Origin: Gigantopelta aegis
Lineage: Eukaryota > Mollusca > Gastropoda > Neomphalida > Peltospiridae
Length of the DNA: 64,000 nt
Direction: 5' to 3'
NCBI RefSeq assembly: GCF_016097555.1
Contig: NC_054712.1
Location: 46,897,571 to 46,961,570, forward strand
Positions within the stretch are counted from its first letter, which is position 1. Each line of letters begins with the position of its first letter. Made by a program: the position numbers and the translations under genes. A model generated the notes under the pieces. The model was not told where the DNA came from. It worked only from the letters and a program-made list of their open reading frames with translations, and did not search any database. Below, in pieces: positions 2,621 to 47,828 of this stretch.

Positions 2621-5600
2621 GCCTGTATATCAGTCTCTCTGTATGTCTTTTTTGGGCAAGTCGTAGCCCAGTGGTAAAGCGCTCGCTTGATGTGAGTTCG
2701 TTTGGGATCGATCCCCGTCGGTGGGCCCATTGGGCTGTTTCTCGTTCCAGCCAGTGCACCACGACTGGTTTATCAAAGGCTGTGGTATGTACTACCCTGT
2801 CCGTGGGATGGTACATATCAAAGATCCCTTGCTGCGAAAAGAGTAGCCCATAAAGTGACGACAGCGGGTTTCCTCTCTCAATATCTGTTGTCTTTAACCA
2901 TATGTCTGACGCCATATAACCGTTAATAAAATGTGTTGAGTGTTGAGTGCGTCACTAAATAAAACATTTCCTTCCTTCCTTCCTGTCTGTCGGACAGTCC
3001 ATCTGTTTGTATATCAATCTCTCTGTATGTCTTTCTTACATGCCTGATTGTTAGTTTTTTATATGTGTAGCCTTCTGTCTTTCCTTGTATACATTTGTCT
3101 AGTCTGTTTATTATGTTTTACCATCTGTTTAAACATCAATTTGCCTTGCTTCTTTATCTTCACGTTTGTCTGTAGTCGGTCAGTCTGGTTTTTGTATGTC
3201 TATGTTTCCTTCTGTCTGTCTCTCCATACACACATTTGTTTGGTCTATCTGGTTTTTGTATGTGTACCTGTCTGTCTGTCTGTCTGTCTTTCTGTACACA
3301 CATTTGTCTAGTCTGTATGACTTTCCATATGTCTGTCCATCCATCTGTTTATACATCAGTCTGCCTTGTTCCTCCATCTACACATATCTGTCAGTCCATC
3401 CAGCCATCTGTCTGTGTATGCATAATTTAGTCAATGATCAGTTATTCCCAGTACTTGTAACTTTATACATCAGTCTGCCTTGTTCCTCCATCTACACATA
3501 TCTGTCAGTCCATCCAGCCATCTGTCTGTGTATGCATAATTTAGTCAATGATCAGTTATTCCCAGTACTTGTAACTTTATACATCAGTCTGCCTTGTTCC
3601 TCCATCTACACATATCTGTCAGTCCATCCAGCCATCTGTCTGTGTATGCATAATTTAGTCAATGATCAGTTATTCCCAGTACTTGTAACTTTATACATCA
3701 GTCTGCCTTGTTCCTCCATCTACACATATCTGTCAGTCCATCCAGCCATCTGTCTGTGTATGCATAATTTAGTCAATGATCAGTTATTCCCAGTACTTGT
3801 AACTTTATACATCAGTCTGCCTTGTTCCTCCATCTACACATATCTGTCAGTCCATCCAGCCATCTGTCTGTGTATGCATAATTTAGTCAATGATCAGTTA
3901 TTCCCAGTACTTGTAACTTTATACATCAGTCTGCCTTGTTCCTCCATCTACACATATCTGTCAGTCCATCCAGCCATCTGTCTGTGTATGCATAATTTAG
4001 TCAATGATCAGTTATTCCCAGTACTTGTAACTTTATACATCAGTCTGCCTTGTTCCTCCATCTACACATATCTGTCAGTCCATCCAGCCATCTGTCTGTG
4101 TATGCATAATTTAGTCAATGATCAGTTATTCCCAGTACTTGTAACTTTATACATCAGTCTGCCTTGTTCCTCCATCTACACATATCTGTCAGTCCATCCA
4201 GCCATCTGTCTGTGTATGCATAATTTAGTCAATGATCAGTTATTCCCAGTACTTGTAACTTTATACATCAGTCTGCCTTGTTCCTCCATCTACACATATC
4301 TGTCAGTCCATCCAGCCATCTGTCTGTGTATGCATAATTTAGTCAATGATCAGTTATTCCCAGTACTTGTAACTTTATACATCAGTCTGCCTTGTTCCTC
4401 CATCTACACATATCTGTCAGTCCATCCAGCCATCTGTCTGTGTATGCATAATTTAGTCAATGATCAGTTATTCCCAGTACTTGTAACTTTATACATCAGT
4501 CTGCCTTGTTCCTCCATCTACACATATCTGTCAGTCCATCCAGCCATCTGTCTGTGTATGCATAATTTAGTCAATGATCAGTTATTCCCAGTACTTGTAA
4601 CTTTATCTTTGTTTAGGGCATGATGTAGCCCAGTGGTAAAATGCTCGCTTGATGCACGGTCATTCTGGGATCGATCCCTGTTGGTGGGCCTATTGGGCTA
4701 TTTCTCGCTCTAGCCAGTGCACCACAACTGGTATATCAAAGGTTGTAGTATGCACTATCCTGTCTGTGTGATGGTGCTTATAAAAGATCCCTTGCTACTA
4801 ATGGAAAAAATGTAGCGGGTTTCATCTTTATGACTGTCAAATTTTACCATATATCTGACATCCAATAGCCGATGATTAATAACTCAATGTGCTCTAGTGG
4901 TGCCGTTAAACAAAACAAACTTTCTTTATCTTTGTTTTTCAGATTTTGGAATTGCGAACGGCGCTACAGAGGAACATGTTACAGCAGATCGAGACGGTGA
5001 TGAGCCTGGAGCGTCTGATCCACCAGATCAACATCTTCTACTTGAAGAACATGCGCAAGGACCTCCAGCTGCTGGAGCGCATGATGCAGGAGATGCCCAG
5101 ACTCACAGAATCCCTCACACCTGTCGAGTTCAGTGAGGTTGTACAGGTACACGAAACACGGCTTGTGCATTCTCTTTTTACTGCTTAATGCGCGGTCGGT
5201 TTGGGATCGATCCCCGTCGGTGGGCCCATTGGGCTATTTTTCGCTCCAGCCAGTGCACCATGACTGGTATATCAAAGGCTGTGGTATGTGATATCCTGTC
5301 TGTGAGATGGTGCGTAGAAGAGATCCCTTGCTGCTAATCGGAAAGAGTAGCCTGTTGTGTGTCGGCAGCGGGTTTTTTCCCTCAATATCTGTGTGTCTAT
5401 TGGGCTATTTCTCATTCCAGCCAGTGCTAACAATTGGTGTAACAGGCTTTGGTATGTGCTATCCTGTCTATGTGATGATGCATATAAAAGATCGCTTGCT
5501 GCTAATCATAAAGAGTAGCACATGAAGTGGCGACAGCGGGTTTCCTCCCTCAATATCTGTGTGGTCCTTAACCCTTTGTCTGACGCCATATAACTGTAAA

Positions 5601-8600
5601 TAAAATGTGTTGAGTGCGTTGTTAAATAAAACATTTCCTTCCTTCCTTCTTTTTTTATAATTTTTTTTTTATATCCCCAGATCATTGACAATGTCAAGAG
5701 TTGAAGAGCCATGAATCACTGCCATACAATATGCTTTTAATTGCATTCAGTATATATTACTCAAATAGAAGATAATTTTCGTATTGATAAGGGAAGATTT
5801 AGCTTTTTGGAACACACTAGTGTTGGTTGGAACATCATCATCACTTATAAGGAAGGAAATGTTTTATTTAACGATGCACTCAACACATTTTATTTACGGT
5901 TATATAGCGTCAGACATATAGTTAAGGACCACACAGATATTGAGAGAGGAAACCCACTGTCGCCACTTCATAGGCTACTCTTTTTTGATTAGCAGCAAGG
6001 GATCTTTTACATACAACATTCCACAGACAGGATAGTACATACCACAGCCTTTGTTACATCAGTTGTGGAGCACTGGCTGGAATGAGAAATAGCCCAATGG
6101 GCCCACCAAGGGCGATCAATCCAAGACCGACTGTGCATCAAGTGAACTCTTTACCACTGGGCTACGTCCCGCCCCTCCTATGAGGGTCAATCCAAGACCG
6201 ACTGTGCATCAAGTGAACTCTTTACCACTGGGCTACGTCCCGCCCCTCCTATGAGGGTCAATCCAAGACCGACTGTGCATCAAGTGAACTCTTTACCACT
6301 GGGCTACGTCCCGCCCCTCCTATGAGGGTCAACCATGACCGACTGTGCATCAAGTGAACTCTTTACCACTGGGCTACGTCCCGCCCCTCCTATGAGGGTC
6401 AATCCATGACCGACTGTGCATCAAGTGAACGCTTTACCACTGGGCTACGTCCCGCCCCTCCGATGAGGGTCAATCCATGACCGACTGTGCATCAAGTGAA
6501 CGCTTTACCACTGGGCTACGTCCCGCCCCTCCGATGAGGGTCAATCCATGACCGACTGTGCATCAAGTGAATGCTTTACCACTGGGCTACGTCCCGCCCC
6601 TTCGATGAGGGTCAATCCAAGACCGACTGTGCATCAAGTGAACGCTTTACCACTGGGCTACGTCCCGCCCCTCCTATGAGGGTCAATCCATGACCGACTG
6701 TGCATCAAGTGAACGCTTTACCACTGGGCTACGTCCCGCCCCTCCGATGAGGGTCAATCCATGACCGACTGTGCATCAAGTGAACGCTTTACCACTGGGC
6801 TACGTCCCGCCCCTCCGATGAGGGTCAATCCATGACCGACTGTGCATCAAGTGAACGCTTTACCACTGGGCTACGTCCCGCCCCTTCGATGAGGGTCAAT
6901 CCAAGACCGACTGTGCATCAAGTGAACGCTTTACCACTGGGCTACGTCCCGCCCCTTCGATGAGGGTCAATCCATGACCGACTGTGCATCAAGTGAACTC
7001 TTTACCACTGGGCTACGTCCCGCCCCTCCGATGAGGGTCAATCCATGACCGACTGTGCATCAAGTGAACTCTTTACCACTGGGCTACGTCCCGCCCCTCC
7101 TATGAGGGTCAATCCATGACCGACTGTGCATCAAGTGAACTCTTTACCACTGGGCTACGTCCCGCCCCTCCTATGAGGGTCAATCCATGACCGACTGTGC
7201 ATCAAGTGAACTCTTTACCACTGGGCTACGTCCCGCCCCTCCGATGAGGGTCAATCCATGACCGACTGTGCATCAAGTGAACTCTTTACCACTGGGCTAC
7301 GTCCCAAGTGAACTCTTTACCACCCTCCTCCGATGAGGGTCAATCCATGACCGACTGTGCATCAAGTGAACTCTTTACCACTGGGCTACGTCCCGCCCCT
7401 CCGATGAGGGTCAATCCATGACCGACTGTGCATCAAGTGAACTCTTTACCACTGGGCTACGTCCCGCCCCTCCGATGAGGGTCAATCCATGACCGACTGT
7501 GCATCAAGTGAACTCTTTACCACTGGGCTACGTCCCGCCCCTCCGATGAGGGTCAATCCATGACCGACTGTGCATCAAGTGAACTCTTTACCACTGGGCT
7601 ACGTCCCGCCCCTCCGATGAGGGTCAATCCATGACCGACTGTGCATCAAGTGAACTCTTTACCACTGGGCTACGTCCCGCCCCTCCGATGAGGGTCAATC
7701 CATGACCGACTGTGCATCAAGTGAACTCTTTACCACTGGGCTACGTCCCGCCCCTCCGATGAGGGTCAATCCGTGACCGACTGACTGGGCATCAAGTGAA
7801 CTCTTTACCACTGGGCTACGTCCCACCCCTCCTATGAGGGTCAATCCACTCTTTACCAGACCGACTGTGCATCAAGTGAACTCTTTACCACTGGGCTACG
7901 TCCCGCCCCTCCGATGAGGGTCAATCCATGACCGACTGTGCATCAAGTGAACTCTTTACCACTGGGCTACGTCCCGCCCCTCCTGATGAGGGTCAATCCA
8001 TGACCGACTGTGCATCAAGTGAACTCTTTACCACTGGGCTACGTCCCGCCCCTCCTATGAGGGTCAATCCATGACCGACTGTGCATCAAGTGAACTCTTT
8101 ACCACTGGGCTACGTCCCGCCCCTCCGATGAGGGTCAATCCATGACCGACTGTGCATCAAGTGAACTCTTTACCACTGGGCTACGTCCCGCCCCTCCGAT
8201 GAGGGTCAATCCATGACCGACTGTGCATCAAGTGAACTCTTTACCACTGGGCTACGTCCCGCCCCTCCGATGAGGGTCAATCCATGACCGACTGAACTCT
8301 TTACCACTGGGCTACGTCCCGCCCCTCCGATGCATCAAGTGAACTCTTTACCACTGGGCTACGTCCCGCCCCTCCGATGAGGGTCAATCCAAGACCGACT
8401 GTGCATCAAGTGAACTCTTTACCACTGGGCTACGTCCCGCCCCTCCGATGAGGGTCAATCCATGACCGACTGTGCATCAAGTGAACTCTTTACCACTGGG
8501 CTACGTCCCGCCCCTCCTATGAGGGTCAATCCAAGACCGACTGTGCATCAAGTGAACTCTTTACCACTGGGCTACGTCCCACCCCTCCTATGAGGGTCAA

Positions 8601-11600
8601 TCCAAGACCGAATGTGCATCAAGTGAACGCTTTACCACTGGGCTACGTCCCGCCCCTCCGATGAGGGTCAATCCATGACCGACTGTGCATCAAGTGAACG
8701 CTTTACCACTGGGCTACATGAGAATGCTTTGAGTTAATAGAATGATGCACCAGGATCTGCACCTTACAAATGGATCATTTTACCCTTAATAACTATCTAT
8801 TATCTTTATTTCTTTACGTACAGATGAAAACAAACACCGGACCCAACATATTTACACCAATTCCATTATGTAAACTGGATAGACGGCAGTCTTTGCCACG
8901 AGTAAAATCAAGATCAGCTGAAGATCACTCCGGTGAAATGGTGCTAGATGAACAATCACACTAAGTGTTGAAATGATTGTATTTTCAACACTGTAATAGC
9001 TTGTAGCTGTCAGCTAGAAATGTGCTGAAGCGCGTTAAATATTCCTTTCCTTTCCCACCTCCTCTGTTTGATAACAGTGATGTGATTGTTCAGCTTTTTA
9101 TCTGATTTCAGATTGTTTTTGTGTAAAATGAGTTTAACAAAGTACTCTGGATTTGGTTTGAAATGCTAAAAAATTACCTTTATTAGTCCCCTACCGGTCC
9201 AACCACAGGGGACTAGGTTTAATCTCGGTCTGTCTGTCTGTCCATCCATCTGTCTGTCCCACTTATATTTTTTCACAATGATATTGAGCTGAAATTTTGT
9301 GTATAGCTTTATCAAATACTATAACAGATCAAGTTTGACTTTCATGATAATATATCCACTTTTGACAGAGTTATGGCCCTTGAACTTAGAAGTTATGGAA
9401 ATGTGGCTTCTTGTCTTTCAATGGGGTATCCATGGCTAGCTCTGTCATTCGTCAAATTCACCAGTTGCAAATTTTAAAAACAATTGGAGAATTTTATTTT
9501 AATTTGGCAAAATAATTTCATGTAATAATTATAGGATATTAAACAAGCTTTCTTTTCGTATCATGTTTATGTCCCGAGTGAAATAATGTTCAATTGTCAC
9601 GAGCTTTAGCAAGTGACAATGAAAATTATTTCACGAGAGACATAAACATGATACAAAATGGTAGCGAGTTTAATATCCTATTTATTACCCATAATGGATC
9701 TTAATTTATATCACTCATCTCGTTTCACCGACGTTCCTGTAAGGTTGTAATACACCAATCGATGACGTCATCATGTGACGTCAAAAGTGTTATGTCCCAC
9801 TTGGCATTCTTGTGGGACATATCACTTTGATACGTACCAAGATATTTGTAACCGTATTGGTAATAATTTATAGTTTATTACAAAATAACTGGGTTTAACA
9901 GATGATTTGGTGAAATTATCTGCTGACCCAGAGGTAGCCCTGGGTATCACATCGTTATGGTAAAGTCTGGGACATCCCTAATTCTCAAGCAATCAACAAG
10001 AAGACCTTTGGCAGGTGTGGTAATTCATAACATGATGATGCATGACTTGTGGTGTTTCTTTTCAGCTGCTGAACACACTGATCTACCCCGCGCCCCAGGT
10101 TTACGAACATCTCACAGATTACATCATGGACCACAAAGACGATATCAGCTTTCAAGACTTGGCTAACTTCGTCTCCGTGATCTCGCAGGCGCGATACACA
10201 CCGAGCCGAATGGACGAGCTGAGTCAGTGCTGTCACGACAAACTGGTGATGTCATTTGACGACCCCGACAGCAATATCGTGGCTCAGATGCAATACATCT
10301 ACCACCTGTGTTGTCTACAGATCGGCTCCGACAGTCTCCTCACTCACGTCTTTACTGTAGACTACCTTGAGAAGGTTGATAAATTGTTTGAAGGTTTGTC
10401 GAAATTCATTGTGTGGTGTTTCATCCATTTTTATGTGACTCAGGGACTCATGTCAAGTAGTTAAACCCCTCTCCACACTCCTACCATTGTTTGAATATGC
10501 TGCTAGTTCAAATAGTACCAAGCATGGATCTGCGTTTTTTATAATAAAAGTTGGGCATAAATTCTGTCAAATTTGTTATAATATTTAAAACATGAAAAAT
10601 CTTTCATTTTGTCGAAGGCATAACAGCCAAAGTCCCCAAAGGGGTAAGTTCTTGATAGGTTGGGTTTCAAAGTATGTGAAATTGCTCTTGGCATTCTGTG
10701 CACATACTTTAATGCAGATTCCAAATGGGGGATGTATTTTGTGGAAGAAATGGACATTCAGTATCAAACATAATTGTAAAAGAACTCTTTTTTTTAAGTA
10801 AACCTAATAGGATGTCCCATTGGACGTACCTAGGGTATGTCTTTGCACAATTCTGAATAACGAAAAAAAAATGTAATACATTTACCAGGGGTGGGAATTC
10901 TCCTCGGATCAGCGGTTTTCCTCTCATGGAACATTGCGTTTCCTCGCATTTTAATCATCCTTGCCCCCAGACCTCTCTAGATTTCCTCTTTTTTTACAGT
11001 TCACCAATTCCCACCCCTGATTTACGGAGTAACCTAAATACGAAAGTAGAGTGTATTTGAATTTTATTTTCATTATTTTTCGATTATCCTGAACAGGTAA
11101 GTAATTTTAATTGGTCATCCATCCTTTCTCTCCTCATTTCTTCACTCTCTCTTCTCCTCAATGCTATTTTAGATGTTTACATCATTTTTAACTCCTGATA
11201 AACCAGAAGTTCAGATTCTATATTTCTGTCTTCTCCTGCCATTCTCAAAGTTTACTTTTTTAACTCCAGCTAAACCAGAAGTTCGGAGTTATCTCGAAGA
11301 TCTGTTTTTCCGTCTGAACCGCTGTGCTGTTCTCGAGTACCCGCATCTTGACATCCCATGGTTCCACGAGGACTACTGCTCCACGATGAAACCTGAACGT
11401 AAGTTACATCATCGGTAAAATCAGTGAACACCATAGGCTTACATGCTCCCATTTTTATAGGGGGGCAGGCTGGTTTTGGACTGAATTTGAATAACAAAGT
11501 TTATTTATATAAGCATACTCCCAAACAACTATATAGGCTTACCAACAAATCACTACGCATTTTTACATGTATTACAACTAATTTTACAGGTAGAATAATG

Positions 11601-14600
11601 GAAATAAATGGTAAAAAGGTCTCAGGTTAGTACATTTTGCCCGAATTTGAGAATTTGCTCTAGCACTAGGGGGACAGTTGTCCCACCCACCCCTCTTTCC
11701 TACGCTTACGATTATCACTTTTAGACTATAGCATTTCACTTTTGTAAAAACAGTGATCACTTTGAGCTTGTCATGTTTGTAAAATTACTCATGACTTTCA
11801 GGCTATATTAAATTTACATGACTGTTTATTAATGTATTATAATATTTCTATATACGTTTTTCAACAATGTACCAAAGTTCCATCAGCATGCTACACGACT
11901 GTATATTAATGTATTAAATTGTTTTTATTTACTCATTTCAGCGATGTACCGAAGTTCTGTCAAGCTGCTACAGGAGATGGAAGATGCTATAAAGGACGTT
12001 CTGGGCGGATCAGCGTATTTTGAGTCGGCAGTGTACACCCCATATCACCACTTTCTCAGTGAGTTACACCCCATATCACCACTTTCTCAGTGAGTTACAC
12101 CCCGTATAAGCATTTTCTCAGTGAGTTACACCCCATATCACCACTTTCTCAGAGTTACACCCCATATCATGACTTTCTCAGTGAGTTACACCCCATATCA
12201 CCACTTTTCTCAGTGAGTTATACTGAATATCACCACTTTCTCAGTGAGTTACACCCCATATCACAACTTTCTCAGTGAGTTACACCCCATATCACAACTT
12301 TCTCAGTTACACCCCATATCACAACTTTTGCAGTGAATTACACTCTGTATTAACATTTTCTCAGTGAGTTACACCCAGTATCAGCACTTTCTCATTGAGT
12401 TACATCCCATATCACCACTTTTCTCAGTGAGTTATACTGAATATCATCACTTTCTCAGTTAGTTAACCCCATATCACCACTTTCTCAGTGAGTTACACCC
12501 CATATCACCACTTTCTCAGTGAGTTACACCCCATATCACTACTTTCTCAGTGAGTCACACCCCATATCACCACTTTCTCAGTGAGTTACACCCCCATATC
12601 ACCACTTTCTCAGTGAGAGACACCCCATATCACCACTTTCTCAGTGAGTTACACCCCGTATCACCACTTTCTCAGTGAGTTACACCCCGTATCACCACTT
12701 TCTCAATGAGTTACACCCAATATTACTACTTTCTCAATGAGTTACACCCCATTATCACCACTTTCACAGTGAGTTACACCCCATATCACCACTTTCTCAG
12801 TGAGTTACACCCCATATCACCACTTTCTCAGTGAGGTATACCCCATATCACCACTTTCTCAGTGAGGTACACCCCATATCACCACTTTCACAGTGAGTTA
12901 CACCCCATATCACCACTTTCTCAGTGAGGTACACCCCATATCACCACTTTCTCAGTGAGGTATACCCCATATCACCACTTTCTCAGTGAGGTACACCCCA
13001 TATCACCACTTTCTCAGGGAGGTACACCCCATTATCACCACTTTCTCAGTGAGGTACACCCCATTATCACCACTTTCTCAGTGTTACACCCCATATCACC
13101 ACTTTCTCAGTGTTACACCCCATATCACCACTTTCTCGGGGAGGTACACCCCATATCACCACTTTCTCAGGGAGGTACACCCCATATCACCACTTTCTCA
13201 GGGAGGTACACCCCATATCACCACTTTCTCAGTGTTACACCCCATATCACCACTTTTTCAGTGAGATACACCCCATATCACTACTTTCTCAGTGTTACAC
13301 CCCATATCACCACTTTCTCAGGGAGGTACACCCCATATCACCACTTTCTCAGGGAGGTACACCCCATTATCACCACTTTCTCAGTGAGGTACACCCCATA
13401 TCACCACTTTCTCAGTGTTACACCCCATATCACCACTTTCTCAGTGTTACACCCCATATCACCATTTTCTCAGTGACTTACACCCCATATCACCACTTTC
13501 TCAGGGAGGTACACCCCATATCACCACTTTCTCAGTGTTACACCCCATATCACCACTTTTTCAGTGAGATACACCCCATATCACTACTTTCTCAGTGTTA
13601 CACCCCATATCACCACTTTCTCAGGGAGGTACACCCCATATCACCACTTTCTCAGGGAGGTACACCCCATTATCACCACTTTCTCAGTGAGGTACACCCC
13701 ATATCACCACTTTCTCAGTGAGGTACACCCCATATCACCACTTTCTCAGTGTTACACCACATATCACCACTTTATCAGGGAGGTACACCCCATATCACCA
13801 CTTTCTCAGGGGGGTACACCACATATCACCACTTTATCAGGGAGGTACACCCCATATCACCACTTTCTCAGGGAGGTACACCCCATATCACCACTTTCTC
13901 AGGGAGGTACACCCCATATCACCACTTTCTCAGTGTTACACCCCATATCACCACTTTCTCAGGGAGGTACACCCCATATCACCACTTTCTCAGGGAGGTA
14001 CACCCCGTATCACCACTTTCTCAGTGACTTACACCCCGTATCACCATTTTCTCAGGGAGGTACACCCCGTATCACCACTTTTTCAGCGAGTTACACCCCA
14101 TATCACCACTTTCTCGGTGTTACACTGCATATCACCACTTTCTCAGTGTTACACCCCATATCACCACTTTCTCTGTGTTACACCCCGTATCACCACTTTC
14201 TCAGGGAGTACACCCCATATTACCACTTTTTCAGCGAGTTACACCCCGTATCACCACTTTCTCAGTGTTACACCCCATATCACCACTTTCTCAGTGTTAC
14301 ACCCCATATCACCACTTTTCTCAGTGAGTTATGCTGTATAATGCTACTTTCTGAGTGATATACACCCCATATTGTAATTTTCTCAACGAGTTTCATCCTG
14401 TATCACCACTTATTCAGTTAAACCCGGTATCACCAGTTTCTTATACTGGGGTACATTAGATAGCCATTTTTCTTACCTAGTTTTGCATTCCTAGATGGTT
14501 TATTATACAGAGAGGCTCGCCTTCTTAAAAACAGTAGTACATCACCAATTGTTTCAAAACCAAATGTGAAAATCATTGCTGTCGGCGAGTTTTGCCTTGT

Positions 14601-17600
14601 CTTGTTATGGTGAAAATTGTTTTACAGATTTTGAGTGTTTGCTGAACTGTGACGGCTGTCCGATCCCATACCCTCAGACGAGCTCTCTACTCAACTCTGA
14701 AGGTCGTCTGATAACCTTCACCCAGGCCACATCATTGTCAGCCGAGCAGATCCAGCACCAGAGGTATCGCACGTAATGGCTGACTTTATAGTAAAACTGT
14801 TGATTGTGAGCTATGTGGTTTCAAGCTGGTTTACTCTATACTTTGTATTCCCAATAACATACAAAATGTGGTATTCCAACATTTGTACTTTTACTTTCAC
14901 GTAAGTGCTGCAAACCTTTTTATAAAATACCTTCATTAAGTTCAATCAAAAACAAGGATGACATCATTATTTGTACGTTAATTATTAATATTAAAAAGAG
15001 TATTTCATTGGTTAATAATGTTGTATTTTGACATTAAAGGATGAAATTATTAATATTAAAAGTAGTTCATTGGTTAATAATGTTGTATTTTGACATTAAA
15101 GGATGAAATTATTTATATTAAAGAGTATTTCATTGGTTAATAATGTTGTATTTTGACATTAAAGGATGAAATTATTTATATTAAAGAGTATTTCATTGGT
15201 CAGTTAAACCATAAATCTGAACTTTAATCTAAAATATAGAAATTTGACTCGTATTGAATGGATTTTTTTAGTTGCCAGAGCCAAATAAAAAATTTATGTC
15301 ATAAAATTAAAAGGTTCAGAATTATGTTTAAAAGTTGTTTATAACAGGATGATGAAATGTTTTTGCTACAAACTATTTAAACATTTTCTTCTGGGTTTTT
15401 TACAGAGTTGCTATATTGGTTTTATTTGAAAAAGATTTCTGTCTAAATAGTCGACATTTAAAGGGAGATAATTTTCTCAGAAGAAGACACTTGGAAATAA
15501 TGGGATACAAAGTTGTAGAGGTAAGTTCTGGATATTAATGCAGCAAAACCAGCCTCAGTGGTGTCGTTGTTAAGCCATCAGACATAAGGCTGGTAGGTAC
15601 AGGGTTCGCAGCCCGGTACCGGCTCCCACCCAGAGCGAGTTTTAACAAGTCAATGGGTTGTTTGTTTGAAACATATTTTATTGCATATAATATACAAAAG
15701 GATTGGGCACAAGTTATTCAACTTATGACGCCCTCTCCTAATTCATTGGGTTTGTGTAAGACCACTACACCCTCTTCTCTCTCACTAACCAATAACAACT
15801 AACTCACTGTCCTGGATGGGTAGGTGTAAGACCACTACACCCTCTTCTCTCTCACTAACCACTAACAACTAACTCACTGTCATGGACAGACAGCCCAGAT
15901 AGCTGTAGGTGTGTGTGCCCAGGACAGTGTGTTTGAACCTTAATTGGATATAAGCACGAACAAATAAGTTGAAATGCAGCAACAAAGGTAATGGTCTTTC
16001 TTAAAAAGTGGAGCAAAGGAAGTAATTTTCTTTAGTATTTATTATCAAAGAAAGAAAACCAAAATACAAGCAGAAAACCTAAATGTACATGCAATTGACT
16101 CGTCGACAGCAGTAACACGACGTGTGTTTTGTAATGTTAGAGTGGGGAGTGCTGGCAGCATTACAAAATGATAGAGTGTCAGAATTTGCATTAAGTAATT
16201 ATTTAATGTTCCTTGAACTTACATCATTAACATATTAAATAGTTAAATCACCATTCATTTAAAAATTGTTTCGTGTATGTTCACAGTTTTGCTGTTTATA
16301 TATACTCTTCAAAAAAAGAAACGCAAAAGGGTACAAATGGGTTATAACTCCGATTTTATGTTTCCTACCGGTTCATGCTTTGTGAATATAAGGTCATTGG
16401 ATGTCCCAAACACATTCCCACGGTTACATTCGATAAAACGCAGCTACTGTACAATAAAGTTCCAAAATGTGAATATTCGCAAAAACGCAGCCATGTGCAA
16501 ACCATGTCACCACTGCACGTGCGTTGTCTGCACGTGCAACATGAACACCGACAGTATAAAAGTGCAGGGTGTTCGCTTGCCTGGCCTCTGTATCTGGCCG
16601 ACAGTTGACAATCCAGGACATGCCACGTCTCGGTGAACCGCAGAGAAACAATGCCATCGGCCGACTAGACGCAGGCGAATCCAGAATGGCCGTTGCCAGG
16701 GCATTCCATGTGTCCCCAAGCACCATCTCCAGACTGTGGGACCGTTACCAGCAACATGGATCAACACGTGACCTCCCTAGATCCGGTCGACCACGGGTCA
16801 CTACCCCCGGGCAGGACCGCTACATCCGGGTACGCCACCTTCGGGAACGATCGACTACTGCCACCTCCACAGCCGCAGCAATACCAGGTTTGCGCAGGAT
16901 ATCCGACCAGACCGTACGGAACCGCCTACGTGAGGTAGGAATTCGTGCCAGACGTCCAGTTCGAGGTGTCATCTTAACACCACAACACCGTCGACTCCGA
17001 CTGCAGTGGTGCCAGATTCATCGACAATGGCCTCAACTGCGATGGAGACAGGTGTGGTTCAGTGACGAGTCCCGATTTCTGCTCCGACGTCATGATGGAA
17101 GATGTCGCGTGTATAGGCGTCGTGGTGAACGTTATTCGGCAAACTGCGTGCAGGAAGTGGACAGATTCGGCGGGGGTAGTGTCATGGTGTGGGCAGCCAT
17201 CTCACACACTGGCAGAACTGACCTGGTCCACGTGCAGGGCAACCTGAATGCACAGGGCTACATTGACCAGATCCTCCGGCCACACATCGTTCCAGTTATG
17301 GCCAATGCCAACGCAGTGTTCCAACATGACAACGCCAGGCCTCACACAGCACGTCTCACAATGGCTTTCCTATAGAACAACAACATTAATGTCCTTCCTT
17401 GGCCATCGATATCACCGGATTTGAACCCAATTGAGCATCTATGGGACGAGTTAGACCGACGCCTCCGACAGCGACAACCACAGCCCCAGACCCTGCCCGA
17501 GCTGGCAGCAGCCTTGCAGGCCGAGTGGGCCACCATCCCCCGGGACGTCATCCATACTCTGGTTGCTTCAATGAGCAGGCGGTGCCAGGCAGTTGTCAAC

Positions 17601-18466
17601 ACACGCGGAGGCCACACCCGGTATTGACTCCAGATGACCTTGACCTTGGTGGTGTGTCCTATCACTTACTCACAATGGACTAGAGTGAATTGTGAACAAT
17701 CCTGCAACATTTGGTAATTATCGGACTCACCATTCAATAATTAAATCAATTCTCCAAATGTTACGACAATGTGGTTTTGCGTTTCTTCTTTTGAAGAGTA
17801 TATATATATGTTTAATAGATCATGCTGGGTAAATTAAAATGGATTTTAAAATAAAATTATCTCCCCTTAACAACTTTTAACACTTTTTTTTGCCGATAAA
17901 TAGTTTTACAGCTTAGTATGTAATTTCAGCCTTCTTTTCATAAAATAGTTTTCCCAAAGTACATTAGATGTTTTAAAGTGACATCTTTTTGAAGATAGTT
18001 TCAGTTATCATTGTAAATATATTCTTCCTTTTATCCAACTGGACTAGGAATTGTTTTATGGTTATCTCCCTTTCTTCCCATCTGTTTCATTTGTGATATA
18101 GATTTCTTATCAATATTAACTCTTTACTCTCCTGTCTGTATGTAATGGCTGGTATTTATTCTCTGTAGATACCTCATTATACATGGAACCCGATGGCAGT
18201 TCTGAGTTATCTCCCCTTGACAACTCCAATAATAAATGTTTAGACTTTAATTTTATGTAACCGATGGTATTTATTCTCTGTAGATACTCACCAAGATGGA
18301 ACTCATTGGTGATTCGGAGTTATCTCTCCTTAATTGTTTAGTCTCCTATCTGTACTTAACGACTGGTATTCATTCTCTGTAGATACCTCACTACACGTGG
18401 AACTCAATGGCACTCTCCGACTGGACTGGGAAGACGAACTACCTGAGAGATCAGATTCTAGGTTGA
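855..18466 (+). CDS. FASTKD1: FAST kinase domain-containing protein, FASTKD1-like (8 coding exons)
   Basis: Coding exons are 855-2558, 4943-5146, 10066-10393, 11270-11398, 11942-12058, 14628-14763, 15406-15520 and 18383-18466. All introns are GT-AG and phases agree at every junction, giving about 938 residues (human FASTKD1 is about 850). FASTKD proteins are mitochondrial RNA-binding regulators of mitochondrial transcript processing and stability. The N-terminus is basic with no acidic residue for about 50 positions, as in a mitochondrial presequence. A long helical region follows. About residues 747-835 look like a FAST_2 region (DIPWFHEDYC). Residues 873-930 are a RAP domain with RRRHLEIMGY and WNSMALS...YLRDQILG, the part most like FASTKD1. 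ATG 855 is the first in frame after a TGA at 813. An untranslated upstream exon cannot be excluded. The paralog assignment is from memory of the RAP domain and is moderate. Confidence 0.82.
2661..2984 (+). mobile_element. SINE, head A / tail a
   Basis: The A-box-like TAGCCCAGTGG and B-box-like GGATCGATCCC form a tRNA-like head. The shared core follows (CCAGTGCACCACGACTGG ... GATCCCTTGCTGC), then tail a (GACGCCATATAACCG, GTGTTGAGTG, AAATAAAACATTTCC) and a TTCC run. It lies in intron 1 of the FASTKD1-like gene. Confidence 0.85.
2985..3347 (+). repeat. Degenerate TCTG-rich simple repeat
   Basis: Imperfect runs of CTGT/TCTG alternate with TTTGTATGTC-like pieces, continuing a purer run at 2581-2620. 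It directly precedes, and probably seeded, the 114-bp array, whose unit contains the same CTGTCTGTG stretch. Confidence 0.6.
3348..4601 (+). repeat. Tandem array, 114-bp unit x 11
   Basis: From TTTATACATCAGTCTGCC to CCCAGTACTTGTAAC the sequence repeats every 114 bases; 1254 bases is exactly 11 units, and the copies read as identical. Because 114 is a multiple of three, a 485-codon frame stays open through it, but that peptide has no gene context. It lies just upstream of the SINE before exon 2. Confidence 0.95.
4615..4923 (+). mobile_element. SINE, head A / tail b, inserted in the exon 2 polypyrimidine tract
   Basis: It has head A (TAGCCCAGTGG) and the SINE core, then tail b (TCCAATAGCCGATGATTAAT, GTGCTCTAGTGG, AAACAAAACAAA). 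A 14-bp direct repeat CTTTATCTTTGTTT flanks it at 4601-4614 and 4924-4937. The right copy forms the pyrimidine tract of the exon 2 acceptor (AG at 4941-4942). Confidence 0.88.
4943..5146 (+). CDS. FASTKD1: FASTKD1-like exon 2
   Basis: The 68 codons start ILELRTALQRN and end ...FSEVVQ; both edges are phase 0. The acceptor tract (tttatctttgtttttcag) is partly a SINE target-site duplication. The donor gtacac is only about 40 bases upstream of another SINE, so this exon lies between two same-orientation SINEs. Confidence 0.85.
5187..5665 (+). mobile_element. Two partial SINEs in tandem, tail a
   Basis: A head-truncated copy starts at the B-box part (GCGCGGTCGG...GGATCGATCCC) and runs to the CTCAATATCTGTGTG segment. 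At about 5396 a second copy begins at the core (ATTGGGCTATTTCTC) and runs through the complete tail a with TTCC. It looks like two SINEs fused head to tail, or an internal duplication. It lies about 40 bases after exon 2. Confidence 0.75.
5850..6124 (-). mobile_element. SINE (minus strand), tail a and core
   Basis: Read on the minus strand it has the core and tail a ending in AAATAAAACATTTCCTTCC. Its 5' tRNA-like head continues into the 71-bp array that follows, so the array is an expansion of this element's head. Confidence 0.8.
6125..8718 (-). repeat. Tandem array, about 36 copies of a 71-bp tRNA-like SINE head
   Basis: The unit starts GACCGACTGTGCATCAAGTG, contains TTTACCACTGGGCTACGTCC and ends ATGAGGGTCAATCCA(A/T). 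On the minus strand each unit carries the SINE A-box-like TAGCCCAGTGG and a B-box-like GGATTGACCCT. Copies differ by few substitutions (CTC/CGC, CCTAT/CCGAT). Scrambled units occur near 7305-7330, 7780-7860 and 8290-8335. The whole array lies in intron 2 of the FASTKD1-like gene. Confidence 0.92.
8824..8964 (+). other. Possible cryptic or alternative terminal exon
   Basis: A good acceptor (ttatttctttacgtacag) is followed by 46 open codons in the phase of exon 2, beginning MKTNTGPNIFTPIPL, and then TAA. Composition is protein-like but no family is recognised. If used, it would truncate the FASTKD1-like protein before its FAST_2 and RAP regions. It could equally be a chance frame. Confidence 0.25.
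9188..9415 (+). repeat. Interspersed repeat D (GGGGACTAGG family)
   Basis: It contains CCCCTACCGGTCCAACC, GCTGAAATTTTGTGTATAGC, CAAGTTTGACTTTCATGA and GAGTTATGGCCCTTGAAC. The same ordered motifs recur at 18864-19460 and 60800-61650. The unit has no obvious coding capacity and its class is unknown. Confidence 0.7.
9521..9690. mobile_element. Long-hairpin MITE-like element
   Basis: Left arm ATAGGATATTAAAC...TATCATGTTTATGTC...AATTGTCAC pairs with right arm GTGACAATGAAAATT...GACATAAACATGATA...GTTTAATATCCTAT around a loop at AGCTTTAGCAA. The arms span nearly the whole element. A smaller stem follows at 9795-9818 (GTCCCAC ... GTGGGAC). It lies in intron 2. Confidence 0.7.
10066..10393 (+). CDS. 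FASTKD1: FASTKD1-like exon 3
   Basis: Acceptor tttcttttcag, then LLNTLIYPAPQVYEHL... to ...YLEKVDKLFE plus one base (phase 1). The donor gtttgt is weak, but the phase fits exon 4 exactly. The segment is helical-repeat sequence. Confidence 0.83.
10886..11019. mobile_element. Short hAT-like MITE
   Basis: It starts CAGGGGTGGGAATT and ends AATTCCCACCCCTG, a perfect 14-bp inverted repeat. ATTTAC flanks both sides (10880-10885 and 11020-11025). It lies in intron 3 of the FASTKD1-like gene. Confidence 0.75.
11185..11213 (+). repeat. Dead duplicate of the exon 4 acceptor side
   Basis: TTTTTAACTCC-TGA-TAAACCAGAAGTTC here matches the true exon 4 junction at 11257-11284, TTTTTAACTCC-AGC-TAAACCAGAAGTTC. 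The acceptor AG is replaced by TG here, so this copy cannot serve as an acceptor at that point. Confidence 0.75.
11270..11398 (+). CDS. FASTKD1: FASTKD1-like exon 4 (start of FAST_2 region)
   Basis: Encodes AKPEVRSYLEDLFFRLNRC... to HEDYCSTMKPE plus one base, ending at a strong gtaagt donor. The DIPWFHEDYC segment is typical of the FAST_2 region. A non-functional duplicate of the acceptor side lies about 70 bases upstream. Confidence 0.85.
11942..12058 (+). CDS. FASTKD1: FASTKD1-like exon 5 (FAST_2 region)
   Basis: Encodes MYRSSVKLLQEMEDAIKDVL... to VYTPYHHFL plus one base, then GTGAGT. Its last 25 bases and donor are the seed of the minisatellite that follows. The first donor (12059) is preferred because joining it to exon 6 gives YTPYHHFLNFECLLN, which is continuous with the family. 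Confidence 0.83.
12034..14335 (+). repeat. Minisatellite built from the exon 5 end and its splice donor (about 75 copies)
   Basis: The unit is about 29-31 bases: TACACCCCATATCACCACTT, then TCTCA, then GTGAGT. The first unit is the true 3' end of exon 5, coding YTPYHHFL, with its donor. Copies near the exon keep GTGAGTT. Later ones are mostly GTGAGGT, GTGTT or GGGAGGT, the last without a GT. Unit length is not a multiple of three, so read-through shifts frame. A block of about 303 bases is repeated (CAGTGAGATACACC at about 13259 and 13562). It occupies most of intron 5. Confidence 0.95.
14628..14763 (+). CDS. FASTKD1: FASTKD1-like exon 6
   Basis: Acceptor ttgttttacag, then (N)FECLLNCDGCPIPYP... 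to SAEQIQHQ plus two bases. The donor is gtatcg. It covers the linker between the FAST_2 region and the RAP domain. Confidence 0.83.
14981..15204 (+). repeat. Tandem repeat, about 62-67 bp x 3.4, AT-rich
   Basis: The unit contains ATTAATATTAAA, GAGTATTTCATTGG, TTAATAATGTTGTATTTTG and ACATTAAAGGATGAAATT. Three full copies and a partial fourth are present in intron 6. Copy 2 has a small internal deletion. Confidence 0.8.
15406..15520 (+). CDS. FASTKD1: FASTKD1-like exon 7 (RAP domain, first part)
   Basis: Acceptor gttttttacag, then (R)VAILVLFEKDFCLNSRHLKG and RRRHLEIMGYKVVE, ending in phase 0 at a consensus gtaagt donor. This is the RAP-domain core. Confidence 0.87.
15565..15990 (+). mobile_element. 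SINE-like element with head C, containing a nested insertion
   Basis: The tRNA-like head has a canonical-looking B box (GGGTTCGCAGCCC), then GAGCGAGTTTTAAC. The tail includes CCCAGGACAGTGTG and TTGGATATAAGCACGAA. The unit GTGTAAGACCACTACACCCT...CTCACTGTC is duplicated at about 15755 and 15826. At about 15663-15745 it is interrupted by a segment (GAAACATATTTTATTGC...CAAGTTATTCAACTTA) also found at 45781-45861. It lies in intron 7 of the FASTKD1-like gene. Confidence 0.65.
16301..17802 (+). mobile_element. Tc1-like DNA transposon, nearly intact
   Basis: Terminal inverted repeats read TATACTCTTCAAAA-A/G-AAGAAACGC on both ends with one mismatch over about 25 bases. The element is about 1.5 kb and is flanked by TA. 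It carries one transposase frame in the same strand as the host gene, inside intron 7 of the FASTKD1-like gene. A single nonsense codon disrupts the transposase. Confidence 0.92.
16620..17627 (+). pseudogene. Tc1-family DD34E transposase with one premature stop
   Basis: The frame is 335 codons plus stop, full length for Tc1-like transposases. The N-terminus has helix-turn-helix DNA-binding segments (AIGRLDAGESRMAVARAFHV, STISRLWDRYQQHGS) followed by GRPRVTTP. The catalytic triad is visible: Asp in FSDESRF, Asp in QHDNARPH and Glu in DLNPIEH. There are 34 residues between the last two, as in DD34E. The only break is a TAG at 17373-17375, after MAFL and before NNNINVLPWP. The frame resumes unchanged. 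It cuts the protein 20 residues before the catalytic Glu. The intact rest suggests recent arrival or a very young mutation. Confidence 0.9.
18141..18235 (+). pseudogene. Upstream copy 1 of FASTKD1-like terminal exon
   Basis: TATTTATTCTCTGTAG at 18153-18168 matches the exon 8 acceptor. It is followed by an open 24-codon stretch IPHYTWNPMAV... ending at TAG (about 18243). The first 9-10 residues match true exon 8 except Ser to Pro; after that it diverges and lacks YLRDQILG. Its acceptor and phase are intact, so it could still be spliced as an alternative end. Confidence 0.75.
18255..18330 (+). pseudogene. Upstream copy 2 of FASTKD1-like terminal exon
   Basis: TATTTATTCTCTGTAG at about 18268-18283 is followed by ATACTCACCAAGATGGAACTC. 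This aligns to exon 8 but has a small deletion that shifts frame, so it no longer encodes the RAP segment. The acceptor is preserved. Confidence 0.7.
18383..18466 (+). CDS. FASTKD1: FASTKD1-like exon 8 (RAP domain end, stop)
   Basis: Acceptor attctctgtag, then IPHYTWNSMALSDW, NYLRDQILG and TGA. Two decayed copies of the same acceptor and exon lie 99 and 214 bases upstream. This third copy is chosen because only it completes the RAP domain. Confidence 0.85.
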   Translation: MPHYTWNSMALSDWTGKTNYLRDQILG

Positions 18467-31290: not shown

Positions 31291-31377
31291 AGTTGACGAC
31301 GGATTTTTGTGCGGTAATCTGTTGAGACTTGGTAAAAGATATTTTGTTGGTGAATTACAGTAAAATACATTTCGAAA

Positions 31378-47828
<16,451 letters not shown>

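Follow-up and report, generated by a model that had tools for sequence, protein, structure and literature searches.

A 31-bp minisatellite, probably seeded by the end of a FASTKD-family exon, repeats the splice donor of that exon along its own intron in Gigantopelta aegis

How does a gene fare when the end of one of its exons, splice donor included, is repeated dozens of times along the intron that follows? This question is raised by a 64-kb stretch of the Gigantopelta aegis assembly (the window), in which the sequence-only reading had picked out an exon ending in YTPYHHFL and a GTGAGT donor. The exon call proved sound: on the plus strand, exons at 10066-10393, 11270-11398, 11942-12058 and 14628-14763 join into a single open frame of 236 residues. 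The joined product matched Pfam FAST_2 above the cut-off (E 6.9e-20, profile positions 5-89 of 89) and FAST_1 weakly, below the cut-off (E 2.2e-4), and a RAP domain lies downstream at 15356-15535 (E 2.8e-7, above the cut-off). The three domains thus stand in the order of a FASTK-domain protein gene, FAST_1 being the one below the cut-off. Furthermore, the joined product aligned with FASTKD4 of PDB 9gek (E 1.5e-7), with VYTPYHHFLNFECLL opposite VATQYGWVLDAEVLL. Because of the FAST_2, weak FAST_1 and RAP matches and the FASTKD4 alignment, the gene is, by homology, a member of the FASTKD family.

The 117-nt exon, whose last 25 nt form the first unit of the array, encodes ...AVYTPYHHFL of FAST_2, and an uninterrupted match to profile positions 43-89 of this domain runs through it into the following exon. 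The introns on either side measure 543 nt and 2,569 nt. A phmmer search for FASTKD paralogues in the same genome, on the open reading frames of five loci (L009, L010, L012, L013 and L015), gave nothing above the inclusion threshold, the best match being the FAST_1 part of L010 (E 0.021); these paralogues are too distant for a matching exon end to be shown in them. The acceptor side of the exon is also duplicated, as a 77-bp tandem pair (11815-11968, 77% alike) that spans the acceptor and reaches 27 nt into the exon, with CAA in the upstream copy in place of the CAG at the real acceptor. Both ends of the exon therefore carry tandem duplications.

Tandem Repeats Finder reported the array with a period of 31, 75.1 copies and 89% matches, and wraparound alignment extended it to 79 units over 12034-14451, 75 of them clear and 4 decayed (Table 1). 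These results confirm the array of 31-bp units, built from the exon end plus GTGAGT, that had been described earlier. Its proposed extent, 12034..14335, held at the start and fell short at the end by ~120 bp. Units 1, 2, 16 and 25 are identical, unit 1 being the exon end and its donor. Relative to the exon copy, units 2-25 carry 2.33 differences on average, units 26-50 carry 1.96, units 51-75 carry 2.56 and units 76-79 carry 9.75. Within the distal block, a stretch of 200 bp or more at 13176 recurs unchanged at 13479, 303 bp away, an internal block duplication. Without units 2-79 the intron would measure 182 nt; the array makes up 2,387 of its present 2,569 nt (~93%).

Table 1. Positions of the array, its parts and the flanking gene features, numbered from the first base of the window.
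Feature	Position	Strand	Basis
Window, part of a 1.149-Gb assembly	C14:46897571-46961570		
FASTKD-family exon, 117 nt	11942..12058	+	phases fit both neighbouring exons, frame open
Authentic 5' splice site GTGAGT, only frame-keeping GT of 138	12059..12064	+	joined-frame translation
In-frame TGA, met from 135/137 alternative GTs	12091..12093	+	joined-frame translation
31-bp minisatellite, 75 clear units (25 exonic nt + GTGAGT each)	12034..14331	+	Tandem Repeats Finder, wraparound alignment
Proximal block, units 2-28; GTGAGT in 17/27	12065..12898	+	wraparound alignment
Distal block, units 29-75; GTGAGT in 1/47	12899..14329	+	unit-by-unit donor count
Decayed distal units, ~4, each with 7-12 differences	14330..14451	+	wraparound alignment
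Next exon (NFECLLNCDGCPIPYP...), acceptor TTTTACAG	14628..14763	+	joined open frame, FAST_2 match

Did the exon give rise to the array, or did a satellite from elsewhere land on the exon? A search of the organism's own assembly with a 29-nt pattern (up to 3 mismatches) placed all 59 matches in the array (C14:46909605-46911868), with none on the other strand and none for the reversed control; some stretches of the assembly read as N, and the repeat counts are lower bounds. In a separate DNA search of the assembly, which scored best candidates only, all 8 matches also fell inside the array. Copies at other places, as a genome-wide satellite or mobile repeat would have them, were thus not found at up to 3 mismatches. 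The sequence-only reading had named wide occurrence away from the exon as a sign against the exon as seed, and no such occurrence was seen in this assembly. The array consensus equals the exon copy. The exon end belongs to FAST_2 and so has a coding role that does not depend on the array; it is therefore probably the seed, as had been suggested. The direction from exon to array is favoured by protein-family conservation, by the identity of the exon copy with the consensus, and by the restriction of the unit to this locus. The pentamer CAGTG occurs twice, once in the exon just ahead of unit 1 and once at the donor, and this pair could have aided the first slippage.

An array of this kind is not out of place in this genome. 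We sampled 20 stretches of 10 kb, hand-chosen at roughly even steps on four contigs, and counted arrays of at least 5 copies with units of at least 10 bp, merging overlapping rows. In these 200 kb, 30 arrays cover 27,254 of the 200,000 bases (13.6%); they lie in 11 of the 20 stretches, and the other 9 have none. Minisatellites are therefore ordinary in the Gigantopelta aegis genome, and with so many of them, it is little surprise that one begins at the edge of an exon. The same abundance, together with an array length known from the assembly alone, is what could be said for chance or artefact, with an unrelated satellite landing on the exon or the assembly multiplying the exon end. We consider this very unlikely, as every one of the pattern matches lies in the array and unit 1 lies within a conserved domain. 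Simple assembly stutter of the exon end is also an inadequate account, because 71 of the 75 clear units are not exact copies of it.

Other repeats occur nearby. Tandem Repeats Finder reported two further large arrays within the first 9 kb of the window. One (3348-4606), with a 114-bp unit in 11 copies at 100% matches, lies between presumed exons of the FASTKD-family gene and is either a very recent expansion or an assembly matter. The other (6116-8717), also within this gene, has a 71-bp unit that was probably seeded by a dispersed repeat, because single copies of a 25-bp part of it occur elsewhere in the window (at 2654, 4616, 25757 and 62147, with 1-3 mismatches; 39 window matches in total). 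A 63-bp tandem repeat of 3.5 copies (14980-15200) lies in the following intron of the gene. Farther downstream are a Tc1-like transposase remnant (16560-17624; HTH_Tnp_Tc3_2, with DDE_3 below the cut-off and a stop at 17373 that breaks the frame) and an open reading frame (31354-31509) with a 20-residue stretch that resembles the first exon of beta-tubulin.

How many of the repeated donors are intact? The full GTGAGT is present in 19 of the 79 units, the authentic one included, and its distribution is uneven, with 18 of 28 in units 1-28 compared with 1 of 47 in units 29-75. A GT at the donor position is kept more widely (48/75 overall; 23/28 in units 1-28 and 25/47 in units 29-75). The earlier statement that many copies keep a usable GT is thus right for the dinucleotide, whereas the complete hexamer survives in only 19 of the 75 clear units, nearly all of them proximal. 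In units 2-25, 16 of 24 retain the full donor, with a core identical to the real one. Among the 50 units 26-75, the main derived forms are GGGAGG (16), GT--GT (13) and GTGAGG (9). The unit alignment supports the view that the exonic sequence ahead of the 18 further GTGAGT sites is nearly the same in each case.

The closest precedent is the minisatellite of human IFI6 (6-16, G1P3), whose 12-bp unit starts at the exon's own donor, at the exon-intron boundary, and keeps the reading frame. According to an excerpt of PMC4526556, which cites Turri, Cuin and Porter 1995 (Nucleic Acids Res 23:1854), two downstream repeat units of IFI6 are reported to be used as splice donors, giving isoforms. In both cases the units offer several donors per transcript, those of Gigantopelta aegis being candidates. 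Here, too, the array starts at an exon-intron boundary, beginning inside the exon and running on through the donor. The Gigantopelta aegis unit differs in being 31 bp long and frame-breaking.

Could the spliceosome slide along the array, picking various donors and adding peptide to the protein, as the sequence-only reading had proposed? The intact donors in their near-identical upstream context and the IFI6 precedent speak for it. For every GT in 12059-14465, we lengthened the 117-nt exon up to that GT, placed it between the upstream exons and the exon at 14628, and translated the product. The results show that, of 138 GTs, the exon's own donor alone keeps the frame open, and the other 137 lead to a premature stop. 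All but two of these run into the TGA at 12091; for the exceptions, the GTs at 12063 and 12090, the stop lies in the exon that follows. The second donor, at 12090, which has the whole 31-nt unit in common with the donor at 12059, gives ...SELHPISPLSQF before that stop. The unit length is no multiple of 3 and so breaks the frame; even the 7 of the 18 non-authentic GTGAGT sites that are in frame by length still reach the TGA at 12091. None of the 137 alternative GTs is thus productive, and for this reason we file the locus with IFI6 by array type only and not as isoform-making. Since all of them give a stop, an added peptide of the HPISPLSQ type is excluded for the exon pair 11942-12058/14628-14763, and productive sliding, refuted for joining to exon 14628, is left with a negligible probability. 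An mRNA with a premature stop is destroyed by nonsense-mediated decay. Because at least one further exon, encoding the RAP domain, follows, later-donor mRNAs should be targets of this decay.

Which donor would then be used? In the excerpt of Carranza et al. 2022 (PMC9225289) that bears on this choice, splicing went exclusively to the upstream one of two identical strong donors in five human minigenes whose flanking introns measured 365 nt. When both donors were weakened, the smaller constructs kept the upstream preference and those with larger exons mostly skipped the exon. On the other hand, with near-equal donors and both flanking introns shorter than 250 nt, the downstream donor was favoured, and where strength was not matched, ~60% of human events preferred the downstream donor; the same excerpt adds that some human exons with short introns are exon-defined too. 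The donor at 12059 is the closest one across the 117-nt exon, and both flanking introns exceed 250 nt. By analogy with these minigenes, as described in that excerpt, the exon's own donor is therefore probably used for the most part, with mostly correct splicing.

It is conceivable that the later donors act as decoys that adjust the share of mRNA removed by nonsense-mediated decay, the length and donor content of the array tuning the output of the gene. Such a regulator would be served by the uniform outcome of the alternative GTs, all of which give a premature stop ahead of at least one further exon, and by the intact donor cores of units 2-25. The exon-definition data in the Carranza et al. 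excerpt (PMC9225289), however, favour the first donor. Compared with the exon copy, moreover, units 2-25 differ at 45 of 600 exonic positions (7.5%) and at 11 of 144 donor positions (7.6%; p 1.0). Equal rates in the two sets of columns are expected without selection on either, and they give no sign that the donors have been kept. We regard regulation of this kind as unlikely.

Donor and exonic columns part ways farther along the array. In units 26-75, 82 of 300 donor positions (27%) and 31 of 1,250 exonic positions (2.5%) differ from the exon copy, an 11-fold contrast (raw p 6e-38). The copies are clonal, so shared changes were collapsed to distinct changes before a binomial test. After collapse, 10 of the 26 distinct changes in units 26-75 fall in the six donor columns (p 0.022), and only the 6-column windows overlapping the donor (starts 25, 26 and 27) reach 10 changes. 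The corresponding figures are 6 of 32 changes in units 2-25 (p 1.0, window rank 15th of 31) and 15 of 46 in units 2-75 (p 0.037, window rank 2 of 31). The collapsed excess is suggestive at best. We did not adopt purging of donors as an explanation, as the raw contrast rests on clonal copies and is weak once these are collapsed. If selection had disarmed the decoys, the distal units with broken donors would be those that were allowed to multiply, and both the 11-fold excess and the collapsed counts in units 26-75 and 2-75 would fit. However, the collapsed signal is weak and is absent from units 2-25, the proximal decoys, which would be the most harmful under exon definition, are the intact ones, and a few amplified founder units account equally well for the distal block. 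Selection of this sort is, in our judgement, distinctly improbable.

The array might instead sequester U1 snRNP. It is rich in GTGAGT, with 19 in 2,405 nt (authentic included) compared with 3 in the 49,000 nt of window 15-64 kb. We scored donors with a human-type matrix, which serves for comparison only, because it gives low scores to several presumed donors of this very gene. By this matrix, the authentic donor is weak on its exon side. Sites at the authentic donor's score number 7.9 per kb in the array, 2.76 in window 15-64 kb and 3.15 in the genome samples. Sites of at least 3 bits by the same matrix, on the other hand, are absent from the array and occur at 1.24 per kb in window 15-64 kb and 1.31 in the samples. 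The array's GTGAGT sites carry TCA before the GT; 17 of them score like the authentic one (included) and 2 lie above it, at 2.8 bits. U1 pairing energies from simple duplex folding were not relied on, as GAG/GTACAC came out equal to the authentic donor and good and poor donors were not separated. A single intron, moreover, cannot plausibly titrate the abundant U1 RNA. The earlier suggestion of U1 sequestration is thus poorly supported, and we give it almost no credence.

Could growth of the array have neutralised its own decoys? While the array was short and the intron below ~250 nt, a border taken from the human data in the PMC9225289 excerpt, intron definition would have favoured the frame-breaking donor nearest the next exon. 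As the array grew, the intron would have become long enough for exon definition, under which the first donor, the correct one, is chosen. This is quite unlikely, and that a short early array in a ~200-nt intron did more harm than the present long one is speculation. If it were true, long arrays would be safer than short ones and array length would be under selection, and nothing would hinder the decay or disarming of the distal donors.

Repeats at exon-intron boundaries are known from other settings. An excerpt of PMC2812944 describes internal tandem repeats at such boundaries in human paralogues in segmental duplications, where units of ~30 bp change gene structure and may form novel introns, with an average of ~4 repeats and 160 bp. 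The present minisatellite is like those described there in unit length and position, but its ~75 units lie within an existing intron. In the Rogers model, as outlined in an excerpt of PMC4974935, introns are gained by tandem duplication of exon segments bearing AGGT, with a fission-yeast case of a 24-bp segment in several copies. Here, too, exonic sequence with splice signals is tandemly duplicated; unlike in the model so outlined, however, no new intron is seen, and an existing donor is multiplied within its own intron. None of the titles listed by the literature searches dealt with this locus, and we make no claim of its absence from print.

Taken together, we favour, with a probability of roughly 70%, an exon-seeded minisatellite whose exon probably uses its own donor and whose array is a tolerated by-product. 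The minisatellite would have begun when the final 25 nt of the FASTKD exon, together with the 6-nt donor core, were duplicated in tandem, and it may then have grown within the intron by slippage or unequal exchange, enlarging the intron from ~182 nt to its present length. The exon copy would have stayed unchanged because it codes for a conserved domain. Judged by the human minigenes, splicing would stay at the authentic donor; were a later one used now and then, the transcript would carry a premature stop and the mRNA would be lost. It is this expected use of the own donor, the decay of later-donor products and the minisatellite-rich genome that make a tolerated by-product the most likely status of the array. 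Three points weigh against this account. First-donor use is carried over from human data. In the same excerpt of PMC9225289, unmatched donors show the ~60% downstream preference and weakened ones mostly lead to exon skipping in the larger-exon constructs, and the donor here is weak on its exon side by the human-type matrix. Finally, the donor-column excess in units 26-75 is not obvious under a purely neutral history, though the copies are clonal.

These results indicate that the edge of a coding exon can seed a minisatellite that fills ~93% of an intron without visible damage to the coding frame. The locus is a natural test of how the spliceosome chooses among donors that share their core and, almost entirely, their exon context, with one productive donor set against 18 non-productive GTGAGT sites in the same intron. 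The exact share of junctions falling at each donor would put a number on the cross-exon proximity rule in an animal gene.
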